DNA of 51,204 nucleotides, taken from the NCBI GenBank assembly GCA_019351975.1, contig JABBOG010000025.1, forward strand, positions 1 through 51,204, written 5' to 3'. The stretch is from Acidobacteriota bacterium (GTDB lineage Bacteria; Acidobacteriota; Terriglobia; Terriglobales; Acidobacteriaceae). The notes below the pieces were generated by a model. That model was not told the origin of the DNA and made no database searches. It saw nothing but the letters and a program-made list of their open reading frames with translations. Below are positions 1 through 40,813 of the stretch, one piece after another; position 1 is the first letter of the stretch; each line of letters starts with the position of its first letter. Both the position numbers and the translations under genes were made by a program.

Positions 1-84
1 ACAATCCGCTCAGGGAATGCAATAAGACGAAATCAGAGGTTTTTCCGCAGCCTGTGAAGCCCGTCCGTTAACGCCATCAAATCA

Positions 85-98
85 GGGGTTTTAACCCC
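85..98. repeat. Short inverted repeat near the window edge
   Basis: GGGGTT-TT-AACCCC forms a perfect 6-bp inverted repeat, with a CGTTAACG palindrome just before it (around 66-73). It lies downstream of the minus-strand amt-like gene. It has the look of the short stem elements found in dispersed acidobacterial intergenic repeats. There is no T-run on either side that would make it a clear intrinsic terminator. Bases 1-152 hold no gene that I can support. Confidence 0.35.
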
Positions 99-152
99 GA
101 AGGGAGATGCTTTGGACTTGATCAGAGCCTCTTTAGCATCGATACCACGGCC

Positions 153-7400: not shown

Positions 7401-7606
7401 TCGGCATGTTCCCCATGGCCCTCGGTCTCGGCGACGGCGGACAGCAGAACGCTCCTCTTGGCCGCGCCGTCATCGGAGGTCTCACCTTCGCTACCATCGC
7501 AACCCTCATCTTCGTTCCCGCCGTCTTCGTCCTTCTGCACGGCGGAAAGAAGCAAGGCAGCGCACCATCTCAACCCACCGCCCCCAGCGAACGAGTCCTC
7601 GGCTAA
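4427..7606 (+). CDS. RND efflux pump, inner-membrane permease (HAE-1-like)
   Basis: This 1059-residue protein has the RND layout: TM1 at about 12-30, a periplasmic porter loop, TM2-6 at about 335-480, an extended TM region, a second porter loop, and five or six C-terminal helices from about 870. The proton-relay pair is visible as VDDAT with D401 and D402. The helix that carries Lys940 in AcrB reads GVATANSIL here, with alanine (A949) at the lysine position. This matches a separate subclass that keeps the motif IMCMGVATANSILVVSFA. The pump expels small molecules using proton motive force. It is first in an operon with an adaptor and an outer-membrane factor. A hydrophobic-compound substrate is inferred from family alone. 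Confidence 0.93.
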   Translation: MWIVRLALDRPYTFIVLAILILIAAPVVILRTPTDIFPNIDIPVVSVAWQYTGLNPEELAGRLTTPYEKALTALVDNISHIESTTLNGEAIVKIYLQPGASLDTANSQVSAASEYMLKSLPPGVLPPEIINFSASSVPILQLGLSGKGLSEQQLNDYGMNDIRTQLVTIPGAVVPNVYGGKQRSIMINLNPNRLQAEGLSPNEVLTALGNQNVVEPSGTAKIGSAEYDIRLNSTPTTIAGLGDLPLKQVNGATVYLKDVASVTDGSPPQTNIVRQNGHRGVLITILKSGSASTLSVVKGIFNLLPRVEATIPPQLKITPIGDQSIFVRSSIDGVIREGVIAATLTGLMILLFLGSWRSTLIIAVSIPLSVLTSIIVLSLIGQTINIMTLGGLALAVGILVDDATVEIENTNRYLEEGLQLREAILEGAAQIAVPALVSTLSICIVFLPMFFLSGVSRYLFVPLAEAVVFAMLASYVLSRTLVPTMAMFLLKPIDHHAAPSQSFFARFQRSFERGFETVRSSYQIILTRLVTARYAFIPLFLLGCLTALLLIPFLGQNFFPTTDNGSFILHVRAKTGTRIEETARLCDLVEDSIRSTVPAQQMGSILDNIGLPYSPLNTMHAASGLFGAADADILVSLNKNHTPTADFVRTLRTRLPHEFPGVTFYFLPSDIVTQILNFGLPAPIDIQFEGSDNHGNRRIAAAMLQQLRQVPGLVDLRIEQPDDSPVLKVNVDRTRALQGGYTQGDIGGSALNILSGSSQLTPQFFLNPKNGVAYSIVAQTPQYQIQSLQDLENIPIASPSAKAPEILADVASISRATEPPIITHYNTRTTLDIYANVQDRDLGSVARQVQRIVDSNRSSLSRGNFVRVRGQVETMQSSYIGLLFGLGFSILLVYLLIVVNFQSWLDPFIIITALPAAIAGIIIFLFLTRTTLSVPALMGSIMCMGVATANSILVVSFAKDRLLITGDALRSAVEAGSTRFRPVCMTALAMIIGMFPMALGLGDGGQQNAPLGRAVIGGLTFATIATLIFVPAVFVLLHGGKKQGSAPSQPTAPSERVLG

Positions 7607-7699
7607 CCCGCCAAAACAGTACCATGGAAACATAGCCTCGAAACCACAGCACGCACCACATGAATCCACGCAGCACGATTCACACAGGAGCACACCAGG

Positions 7700-35569: not shown

Positions 35570-37735
35570 TTACCCCTCCAGGCTCTGCCGCAACCATCCC
35601 TGCAGCGCCGACATACTCACCTCGCGACCCAGAAACGCCTGTACCAGCTCCCTCGCCGGCTTCGACCCGCCCAGCTCCAGCACCGCCTGCCGATATCGCC
35701 GCGCCACCGGCCCCTCCACCAGATTCTTGCGGTCGAACTCCGCAAAGAACTCCAGCGCCATCACCTTGTCATACAGATACGTGTAGTAGTTTGACGTGTA
35801 CCCCACAAGGTGCGTGAACGCCGCGTACATCCGGTTCCCTTCCACAAACTCATACTTCGAAAACCGGTCGTATCCCGCCTTCAGCAGCGCGTCCAGATCC
35901 AATTCGCCTGCCTTCTTGTCGTGTGTCTCCAGCGAGTACGTTGCATACATCACCTGCGTCAGCGTGCTCAGCGCGCGCCCATGCGCACTCGCCTTCACCA
36001 TTCGCGCAAACACCTCCTTCGGAATCGACTCTCCCGTCTGATAGTGCCGCGCAAACGTCCCCACCAGTGCCGCGTCCTCGAAAAACTCCTCCAGCATCTG
36101 CGACGGCACCTCAACAAAATCCCCCTCCGTCGCAATCCCCGACTGCCCCGCCCACCGCTGCCGTCCTCCCAGTACCTCATGCATCAGGTGCCCAAACTCG
36201 TGAAAGTACGTCACCACATCCGCATACTGCATCAGCCCGAAGTCCTCACCCTTCGGCTCCGGAAAGTTACACACCAGCGAAGCCTCCGGCACCTGCTGCC
36301 CCTGCACCCCGCCCACCAGCGAGCACTCACTGAACCACTTGCTCTTGCCCTCGCGCGGATGCATATCCAGATAAATCCTCCCCACCACTGCACCTTTATA
36401 TCGACTGGAGTCTTCAACCTTCGATCCCACCGCAACGCTGTCATCTCGACCGGAGTCGGCGCTCTTTGCGGGTGCCCCATTCATGACGACGGCTTCATCG
36501 TCGGCATGGGTGGGATCCGACCCTCCATCATCCATCACGTCAAACGCCTTCACCCCATCAGCCCACACCGCCGCACGCTCGTTCCGCACAAACCTCACCC
36601 CAAACAGCTTCCCCGCCGTCATCAGAATCCCCGCCTCCACCTGCTCATACGGAAAATACGGCCGCACGCTCTGCGAATCAAAGTCATACATCGCCCTCCG
36701 ATACTGCTCCTCCCAATACCGTGCATCGCTCAGCGTCAACGGCAGCGCCTCCGGGTTCCGTCCGCGCACAAACGCCTCCAGCTCCACAAACTCCTGTTGC
36801 GCCGTCTCTCTCGCGGCCGCCTCCACCTCATCCAGAAACTTCCGCATATTTGCCGCCGAACCCATCATCTGGTCCACCGTCGCCAGGTCAGCCCAGCTTC
36901 TGAACCCCAGCAGCCCCGCCATCTCCTCGCGCGCCGCCAGCAGGTCCAGCAGCACCTGCTTGTTCGTCGGATACCCCCTGTCGTTGTACGCCAGATACAT
37001 CTGCCGCCGCAGCTTCGGGCTCACCGCATAGCTCATCACCGGCGACATCTCCGGCGGGTCCGTCGTCAGCACGACCGCCCCCTCCGCCACCAGCTTCACC
37101 CCGCTCTCCAACGCCTCCGTCCTCACCCCATGCCGCGCCAGAGTATCCTCCGGCAGCCCAAACAGCTCGTCCACATCCTCAACTTCAATCTTGCGCACGT
37201 CATCCTGCACCGTCCGGCTAAAGCTCATACTCAGCTCGGTCATCTTGTCGGCCAGCGCGCGCACCCGCTCCCTCGTCGCGTCGTCCTTGTCCACACCCGA
37301 CAGCCGATACCCCAGCAGCGTCCGTTCCATGTAATACCGCGTCGCCTCATCCTCTCCGCTCACATCCACCTCCGCCAGCGCCGCATACACCTCGCGGTTC
37401 AGGCTCAGCGCCACTCCTTCAGCACCAATCACCTGCGACAAAGCCTGCGCCGCGTCCCTCACCTCCGCCACCGGGTGCACCATGAACATCACACCGCTCT
37501 GGCTTCCCGCCATCCGCAGATGCCAGCTCGCGCGGTCATACGCCGCCAGCGTATTCCCCACCGTGCGCTCTCCCGTTACCGCCAGCAAATCCACAATCTT
37601 CGTCCGCGAAGCCTCTAAATGCGCCTCCACCCACGCCTTCGTCTCCTCCGCACCCATCGCGCCCGCCCACAAATGCAGCTCATCCCGCACCACGCCCGTC
37701 TCCAAACCCGCATCCGCAACCTGCATCATTCGCAT
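35570..37735 (-). CDS. M3-family zinc metallopeptidase (oligopeptidase) with internal insertion
   Basis: A 721-residue thimet-oligopeptidase-like enzyme that degrades short peptides. The zinc site is H512-E-F-G-H516, with the third ligand expected in EVPSQMLEEFF. Family marks are YLDMHPREGKSKW, ALVGTFARHY and the C-terminal YTYLYDKVMALEFF. Between KAFDVMDD and KGAVVGRIYLD, residues about 402-446 form an acidic, low-complexity insertion encoded by a repeat-like DNA segment; homologues usually pass from FDV to GRIYLD through only a few residues. The start region has GGATGGAGAG near the first ATG. A small protein gene lies 43 bases upstream. Confidence 0.92.
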   Translation of the reverse strand: MRMMQVADAGLETGVVRDELHLWAGAMGAEETKAWVEAHLEASRTKIVDLLAVTGERTVGNTLAAYDRASWHLRMAGSQSGVMFMVHPVAEVRDAAQALSQVIGAEGVALSLNREVYAALAEVDVSGEDEATRYYMERTLLGYRLSGVDKDDATRERVRALADKMTELSMSFSRTVQDDVRKIEVEDVDELFGLPEDTLARHGVRTEALESGVKLVAEGAVVLTTDPPEMSPVMSYAVSPKLRRQMYLAYNDRGYPTNKQVLLDLLAAREEMAGLLGFRSWADLATVDQMMGSAANMRKFLDEVEAAARETAQQEFVELEAFVRGRNPEALPLTLSDARYWEEQYRRAMYDFDSQSVRPYFPYEQVEAGILMTAGKLFGVRFVRNERAAVWADGVKAFDVMDDGGSDPTHADDEAVVMNGAPAKSADSGRDDSVAVGSKVEDSSRYKGAVVGRIYLDMHPREGKSKWFSECSLVGGVQGQQVPEASLVCNFPEPKGEDFGLMQYADVVTYFHEFGHLMHEVLGGRQRWAGQSGIATEGDFVEVPSQMLEEFFEDAALVGTFARHYQTGESIPKEVFARMVKASAHGRALSTLTQVMYATYSLETHDKKAGELDLDALLKAGYDRFSKYEFVEGNRMYAAFTHLVGYTSNYYTYLYDKVMALEFFAEFDRKNLVEGPVARRYRQAVLELGGSKPARELVQAFLGREVSMSALQGWLRQSLEG
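36396..36535. repeat. Repeat-like segment inside the M3 peptidase gene
   Basis: The segment contains two near-identical copies of CGACYGGAGTC (about 36400 and 36448). It also has a long hairpin at 36476-36514, whose arms start CCCAT-TCATGACGACG and end CGTCG-GCATGGGTGGG. The wording TCATCTCGACCGGAG and GTGCCCCATTCATG matches interspersed intergenic repeats that I recall from acidobacteria. It stays in frame with the peptidase. Confidence 0.65.
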
Positions 37736-39673: not shown

Positions 39674-40813
39674 GTGCCTAACCTCGTCACCCTCGCCGAC
39701 ATCCAGTCCGCCGCCCATCGCATCGCTCCCGCCGCCGTCCGCACGCCGCTCGTTCGCCTCACCCGCGCCCGCCTCCGCATGGCCGGCTTCCCGGAGCTCT
39801 CCGAGACCGCGCCCGACATCTACCTCAAAGACGAGTCCGCCCAGCCCATCCACAGCTTCAAGCTCCGCGGTGCCTACAACAAGATCGCGCAGCTCTCGCC
39901 CGACGAGCTTCGCCGCGGCGTCATCACCTACTCCTCCGGAAACCACGCGCAGGGCGTCGCCTACGCAGCACGCGCTCTCGGCGCCAAAGCCATCATCGTC
40001 ATGCCCTCCAACGCGCCACAGATCAAGCGCGACGCCACACTAGCCCTCGGCGCGGAAATTGTCGAAGTTGGCCCCGCCAGCTCCGAGCGCAAACACAAGG
40101 CCGAAGCCCTCGCCGCCCTCCACGGCTACACCATCATCCCGCCCTACGACGATCCAGCCATCATCGCCGGCCAGGCCACCTGCGGCCTCGAAATCCTCGA
40201 ACAACTCCCCAACGTCGATCTCGTCCTCTCCCCCGTCTCCGGCGGCGGCCTGCTCTCCGGCGTCTCCACCGCCATCAAGCTCTCCGCAGCACCATCTTCC
40301 AACTCCATCCACAGCGGGCAGGAGCATCGCCCTGAAGGGGACCGACTTCAGTCCGTCCGTTCCACGCAGCAGCAAAGCGGCGGCTTCAGCCGTGGAGGCA
40401 GTGATAGCTCCCCTATTCAAATCTTCGGCTGCGAACCCGAGCTCGCCGCCGACGCTCACGCCTCCTTCACCACCCGCACCCTCACCGAGTGGCCCGCCGA
40501 ACTCACCTCCCGCACCCTCTGCGACGGCCTCCGCACCCAGTCCCTCGGTGCCCTCAACTTCGACCACATTCTCCGCTTCACCGACGGCATCCTCACCGTC
40601 ACCGAGGCCGAGATCCGCACCGCTACCCGCATCATCCTTCAAGCCACTAAGCTTACCGCCGAGCCTTCAGGCGCCATCACCCTCGCAGCCGCGCTCTTCC
40701 ACACCCACCAGCTTCCACCCGCCCGAAAGATCGTCGCCATCCTTTCCGGCGGCAACCTCGACCCCACTCTCCGCACCGAACTCCTCAACCAAAACGAGCC
40801 GATGAGCGCGTAA
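39674..40813 (+). CDS. Threonine/serine dehydratase with an in-frame repeat insertion
   Basis: A PLP-dependent fold-type II enzyme that deaminates threonine to 2-oxobutanoate. The GTG start gives 379 residues. The PLP lysine lies in HSFKLRGAYN, the serine-rich loop is YSSGNHAQGVA, and the phosphate-binding loop is SGGGLLSG. There is no C-terminal ACT regulatory domain. Residues about 205-247 (within SGQEHRPEGDRLQSVRSTQQ and onwards) are polar and low-complexity. They interrupt the step from TAIKL to IQIFGCEPE that is normally short, and the underlying DNA is a hairpin-rich repeat. Without the insertion the protein would have the normal length of short ilvA/tdcB-type enzymes. Confidence 0.88.
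   Translation: MPNLVTLADIQSAAHRIAPAAVRTPLVRLTRARLRMAGFPELSETAPDIYLKDESAQPIHSFKLRGAYNKIAQLSPDELRRGVITYSSGNHAQGVAYAARALGAKAIIVMPSNAPQIKRDATLALGAEIVEVGPASSERKHKAEALAALHGYTIIPPYDDPAIIAGQATCGLEILEQLPNVDLVLSPVSGGGLLSGVSTAIKLSAAPSSNSIHSGQEHRPEGDRLQSVRSTQQQSGGFSRGGSDSSPIQIFGCEPELAADAHASFTTRTLTEWPAELTSRTLCDGLRTQSLGALNFDHILRFTDGILTVTEAEIRTATRIILQATKLTAEPSGAITLAAALFHTHQLPPARKIVAILSGGNLDPTLRTELLNQNEPMSA
40300..40415. repeat. Hairpin-rich repeat inside the threonine dehydratase gene
   Basis: Three stem motifs with TTCA/TGAA centres stand close together: CCCTGAAGGG (40330-40339), GGACCGACTTCAGTCCGTCC (40339-40358) and CGGCTTCAGCCG (40381-40392). They are preceded by GGGCAGGAGCATCGCCC. This is the layout of an interspersed intergenic repeat, but here it is read through in frame as protein. 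Confidence 0.75.

Follow-up and report, generated by a model that had tools for sequence, protein, structure and literature searches.

The stretch of DNA analyzed here, referred to as the window, comprises 51,204 nucleotides of contig JABBOG010000025.1 (assembly GCA_019351975.1) from a member of the Acidobacteriaceae, and its nearest named homologues suggest that the genus is Granulicella. The genome of the window, present in 132 contigs, is denoted G000, and other G-numbers refer to genomes of the same genus (28 genomes). Two enzyme genes of the window, a threonine-dehydratase-family gene and an M3 peptidase gene, contain in-frame inserts with copies of palindromic repeats, termed element A and element B, which were recognized by the models R1 and R2, respectively. 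The features are as follows:

39674-40813, plus strand: threonine-dehydratase-family gene (PLP, PALP fold), 379 aa, GTG start as listed; open frame, Pfam PALP
40283-40330, plus strand: part of the expanded linker not covered by element A; weak matches only in its own genome
40298-40399, plus strand: codons of residues 209-242, a predicted disordered loop (AlphaFold2 pLDDT below 50)
40330-40339, no strand: short palindrome CCCTGAAGGG, by sequence position
40331-40401, plus strand: element A copy with two TTCA-loop hairpins, in frame as residues 220-243 (model R1)
40339-40358, no strand: hairpin 1, GGACCGACTTCAGTCCGTCC, a 20-nt near-perfect palindrome with TTCA loop (position; family covariation)
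40380-40393, no strand: hairpin 2, GCGGCTTCAGCCGT, with TTCA loop (position; family covariation)
35570-37735, minus strand: M3 peptidase gene with in-frame insert (ORF; Pfam; solved-structure alignment)
36398-36526, minus strand: M3 codons 404-446, opposite one residue in 1s4b (structure alignment)
36469-36516, plus strand: element B copy in the M3 gene, antisense to the gene and translated within the loop (model R2)

The dehydratase was assigned to family level, with no exact substrate, because the best NCBIfam models fall short of their cut-offs: all of the 25 matches listed remain under their own, and the top model, PRK07048, scores 268.7 bits against 452. The top Foldseek match was TdcB (2gn1), and the solved threonine deaminase 1ve5 covers residues 6-204 and 249-363, i.e., both flanks of the additional segment. 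The initial annotation had described an otherwise normal enzyme whose frame is kept across an intergenic repeat, which the open frame and the two-sided alignment bear out. A second related dehydratase is encoded in the same genome (G000:C66:37324), so the window gene is possibly dispensable and need not be essential. The dN/dS ratios of the flanks (N side, C side) were 0.18 and 0.18 between the window and G013, 0.27 and 0.45 between the window and G017, 0.29 and 0.88 between G013 and G017 (C-side dS 0.235), and 0.07 and 0.10 between G015 and G007; the pair of the window and G014 yielded no dS.

The linker, taken as the span over window residues 201-250, was measured in the 80 top-ranking homologues among 297 found in GTDB. 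It has 50 aa in the window, as against 10-15 aa in 77 of these 80 (63 with 10 aa, 12 with 15, and one each with 12 and 14), which agrees with the earlier statement that homologues are short at this position. The remaining three, with 29, 31 and 57 aa, match the loops of G015, G017 and G013, all of the window's genus. Within the genus, an orthologue was found in 26 of the 28 genomes (that of G005 is a fragment spanning the linker), with a long linker in four and none in 22, and the loop peptide varies between species. Long linkers thus occurred in four genomes of one genus only, with inserts in the other three that differ from that of the window; a similar loop in unrelated genera did not appear among the homologues measured.

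All three stems previously noted in the segment (CCCTGAAGGG, GGACCGACTTCAGTCCGTCC and GCGGCTTCAGCCGT) were located, and in the 20-nt palindrome at 40339-40358 a count by eye gave 7 of 8 pairs. An inverted-repeat scan of 40000-40700 listed none, and repeat models were therefore used instead. Element A proper accounts for 71 of the roughly 105 extra nucleotides, so the repeat first thought to span residues of about 205-247 is confirmed for residues 220-243, while no repeat could be identified in the remainder of the excess of roughly 35 aa. In the frame of the gene, the element encodes the stop-free peptide PEGDRLQSV...GGFSRGG; two A-strand frames recur in ORFs that span the repeat, FEGDGLQPV... 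and LKGTGFSPS..., of which the dehydratase uses the first. The AlphaFold2 model, based on a 26-sequence alignment, has a mean pLDDT of 86.1, with values below 50 for residues 209-242 between helix 192-205 and strand 249-255, in agreement with the surface loop proposed initially. Regulation by message structure, proposed along with it, was rejected for lack of support, since RNA folding was no better than in shuffles (z -0.45 for element A and -0.28 for the 138 nt).

Covariance model R1 was built from 12 aligned copies, including those in folC, tsaD and the asparaginase gene and leaving out the window copy; its seed copies came from searching the window's own genome with 40283-40420. R1 scores the window copy (40331-40401) at 64.1 bits (E 1e-13 genome-wide) and has at least 82 matches in the genome at E ≤ 0.1 and at least 70 at E ≤ 1e-6, these counts being lower bounds because scoring covered 150 of the 3069 first-look candidates. 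A weak, degenerate match also lies close to the window start (53-106, plus strand, 21.9 bits). The model has 70 positions (42 for element B), with a consensus of approximately TTGAAGGGGACGGGCTTCAGCCCGTCC, a spacer and GGGGCTTCAGCCCCGGAGG. In the stems, 92.9% of cells are paired and 15 cells changed on both sides, compared with 4.2 in shuffles; the covarying stems speak for a DNA family. A spanning ORF, defined as running from stop to stop, extending 28 aa or more beyond the repeat on either side and totalling at least 130 aa, is present for 27 of the 70 copies and missing for 43, in line with the many intergenic copies that the initial annotation had anticipated. By the criteria for RPE-like in-frame insertion, homology continues on both sides of the insert without frameshift, and the insert is missing from most homologues. 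On the evidence of the sequence, then, the segment can be taken as an in-frame copy of a genomic repeat that most homologues lack.

The window genome contains seven Y1_Tnp genes, and one of them (G000:C77:7288-7515) stands between inverted A copies (C77:7087-7154, plus strand; 7585-7654, minus strand). Its reading frame contains the HUH-like MPDHLHIL. This frame (L053, 1387-1872) was also observed to continue into the downstream inverted copy, and the repeat may encode its C-terminus. Element B copies surround another Y1 gene, on C88. Element A therefore agrees with REP/RAYT-associated sequences in being a short palindrome present in many copies and in having copies that flank a Y1 (HUH) gene. 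A GTAG tag at the end does not characterize the 70 copies: GTAG occurs near an end in 3 and anywhere in 8. The CGTC of the other described super-family occurs near an end in 7 of the 70 and anywhere in 53, mostly in the hairpin 1 stem (41 of 70 at one position). Based on this pattern, element A was classified as REP-like and transposase-associated, outside the GTAG family.

The dehydratase is one of several unrelated proteins that carry the element. Twenty spanning ORFs of G000 were scanned, among which 11 had Pfam families and eight had element A between or inside conserved domains: the window dehydratase, TsaD, LysS, a beta-lactamase-family protein, FolC (counted via solved structures), asparaginase, a GH57/DUF3536 protein and NadB. 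A protein with a poly(A) polymerase head is a probable ninth case and was left out of the count. In the one-contig genome G007, 61 of the 64 A copies (E ≤ 1e-8) were examined and 19 lie in ORFs that extend 35 aa or more to either side of the element; 12 of these ORFs had Pfam families and six had element A inside or between them, namely asparaginase, QueA, MurD, HemC, a Fapy/H2TH DNA glycosylase and a GHMP kinase. With seven further proteins in G000 (8 of 20 ORFs in all) and six in G007 (6 of 19), such read-through is not rare in this genome and genus, contrary to the initial description. The ORFs without a Pfam family, 9 among the 20 and 7 among the 19, were left uncounted. Also uncounted were Alr and RsmI (G000) and MurB, GFO_IDH and an amidohydrolase (G007), in which domains lie only downstream and translation may in fact start beyond the element, MiaB and GH20 (G007), with domains upstream of the element only, and UvrA (G007), which was unclear. 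A codon-usage frame caller was dropped after being right on 119 of 245 test segments.

Comparisons with solved structures place the element within additional loops. In TsaD, the unmatched stretch 236-377, with about 110 extra residues, includes element A; the element likewise lies inside residues 281-378 of asparaginase, which face 4 residues, 410-465 of NadB, which face 21, and 170-214 of FolC, which face none. The TsaD insert (L055, G000:C68) also holds, beside element A, a tandem repeat encoding GSVNLP units. In G023, G011, G003, G026, G008 and G004, FolC has loops of 34-46 aa, in which neither element was matched at E ≤ 0.001. The asparaginase loop carries element A in G000 (73.1 bits, a copy in the R1 model), G020 (83.0 bits) and G007, and has 90 aa in G007 compared with 28 aa in G015, with flanks 94% and 92% identical; this pair is the clearest empty-site comparison. 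The inserts of G000 and G020 are alike around the element, and their sequences may trace back to one common insertion. Pieces of a third type of repeat were recognized by eye in the asparaginase loops of G001, G007 and G020; this dispersed repeat, GTCATCTCGACCGAAGCG...GGAGAGACC-like (L328, L329, L335), is seemingly translated.

Judged from the genomes of relatives, the dehydratase loop is occupied by other repeats elsewhere in the genus, a pattern that recurs in other enzymes. Model R2 was built from nine copies of element B, all from G000, and does not contain the copies of G013, G015 or the window M3 gene. It identifies two tandem copies in the dehydratase loop of G013 (60.3 and 46.7 bits) and one in that of G015 (39.9 bits). 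The loop of G017 (L011) is a CCCTGGG tandem, in which the models found neither element A nor element B. In the gene tree, G015 joins the insert-free G007 and G016 (0.997), G000 and G013 are sisters (0.982) carrying different elements, and the placement of G017 is weak (0.38), which suggests at least three insertions as the simplest minimum. The nearest relative, G013 (89% over the flanks), itself has an insert, so there is no empty site of this gene in a very close strain and replacement within the G000/G013 lineage is possible.

The A and B copies were also counted at equal thresholds across genomes (E ≤ 1e-8 for A and 1e-4 for B, 150 candidates scored per genome). The counts (A/B) were 65/13 in G000, 4/43 in G013, 5/39 in G015, 3/21 in G017, 64/31 in G007, 59/6 in G016 and 12/13 in G014. 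In G000, G013 and G015, the family found in the loop is thus the more abundant one. This link is not general: the A-rich G007 (64 A, 31 B) and G016 are without an insert in the loop, and G017 (3 A, 21 B) has the CCCTGGG tandem.

The second insert of the window, in the M3 peptidase gene, contains an element B copy that scores 39.6 bits with R2 (E 4.1e-5 genome-wide), the copy being absent from the model, and a piece resembling a third repeat, GTCATCTCGACCGGAG, as seen by eye. Residues 395-455 (61 aa) correspond to 19-24 aa in 24 of 26 aligned relatives; the two exceptions are G027, with 53 aa reading RHPERSAQREVEG, and G013, a fragment. In the M3 gene of G013 (L214, G013:C101), element B was observed in frame at a different site, and the 3' part of that gene was found in part, containing one TAG.

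It is highly probable, in our estimate at about 0.88, that element A is a REP-like, Y1-moved repeat and that its copy survives as a near-neutral passenger in a permissive loop of the dehydratase. As a non-autonomous repeat, it would probably be mobilized by the Y1 (HUH) transposase of the same genome, and a copy would have inserted into the loop that joins helix 192-205 to strand 249-255. Given the stop-free frame and a net change that preserves the downstream frame, the enzyme fold would be kept and a disordered surface loop gained; the protein would presumably still be made and active. Gene-breaking copies would be purged, and copies in permissive loops would persist at little cost or benefit.

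The repeated filling of the same loops might instead reflect targeting, with repeats directed to DNA sites that happen to code for these loops. Such a hotspot would fit three or more probable insertions by two families into the dehydratase loop, and asparaginase and M3 loops that likewise hold differing repeats across species; however, unrelated families enter the same loops, and survival in permissive loops accounts for the recurrence without targeting, which makes this explanation unlikely. A selected function, whether of the peptide in regulation or interaction or of RNA hairpins controlling the message, would be in keeping with the covarying hairpins and the maintained frame, but the peptide differs between species, 22 of 26 orthologues do without it, the loop is predicted to be disordered and the RNA folds no better than shuffles; we regard it as very improbable. 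The lowest probability, only slight, is given to an error in assembling the repeats of a draft genome or to a decaying gene that is still open. The genome is in 132 contigs, a paralogue exists and dN/dS is raised in some pairs, but relatives assembled independently have inserts as well, as do other genes of the one-contig G007, and the window-G013 dN/dS is 0.18 on both flanks.

Beyond the passenger reading preferred here, we tentatively propose that certain enzyme loops in Granulicella are landing pads refilled by the active transposase-linked repeat family of each species, possibly with site preference, an idea that is conceivable and still doubtful. If true, species would differ by repeat-coded loops in conserved enzymes, a continuing and naturally replicated source of new protein. 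The loops offer natural replicates of mobile DNA becoming protein, with one loop, different repeats in sister species and conserved flanks. Insertion tolerance could be studied in the permissive loops of TsaD, LysS, FolC, MurD and HemC, all widely conserved enzymes, and annotation calls for caution, as 'extragenic' palindromes can be coding.

Intragenic GTAG/CGTC REPs were reported in Opitutus, Rickettsia, Thauera, Xanthomonas and others; in recB, two Xanthomonas species have distinct REPs at roughly the same position (Di Nocera et al., 2013; PMC3733652). Element A resembles them, as far as the accessible text describes them, as a short palindromic multi-copy repeat inside genes of unrelated proteins, and differs in lacking a conserved GTAG and in having CGTC in 53 of 70 copies, mostly in-stem. 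In the accessible part of that paper, Acidobacteria figure only for tyrosine transposases. Their TIRYT are similar to element A by description, in that Y1 genes have flanking inverted repeats, one Koribacter set being part of a repeated DNA family; protein-coding copies, unlike for element A, are unmentioned in that part (PMC3733652). Rickettsia palindromic elements (RPE) are translated in frame inside many proteins (PMC10969869; PMC3733652). By the descriptions accessible there, they share with A and B the in-frame translation of palindromic repeats, but measure about 150 bp, compared with models of 70 and 42 positions, and A and B copies adjoin Y1 genes. Granulicella aggregans appears in a genome table of a paper that, in its accessible text, finds REPs seldom overlapping protein-coding regions (PMC12306157), and the transposase superfamily is covered in PMC6006769. 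The literature searched, with little subscription content, gave no recognizable report of coding REPs in Acidobacteriota. Against this accessible literature, in-frame intragenic REPs are a known kind, to which the present case adds its repeat families, its phylum and the finding that the same loops are filled repeatedly by several families.
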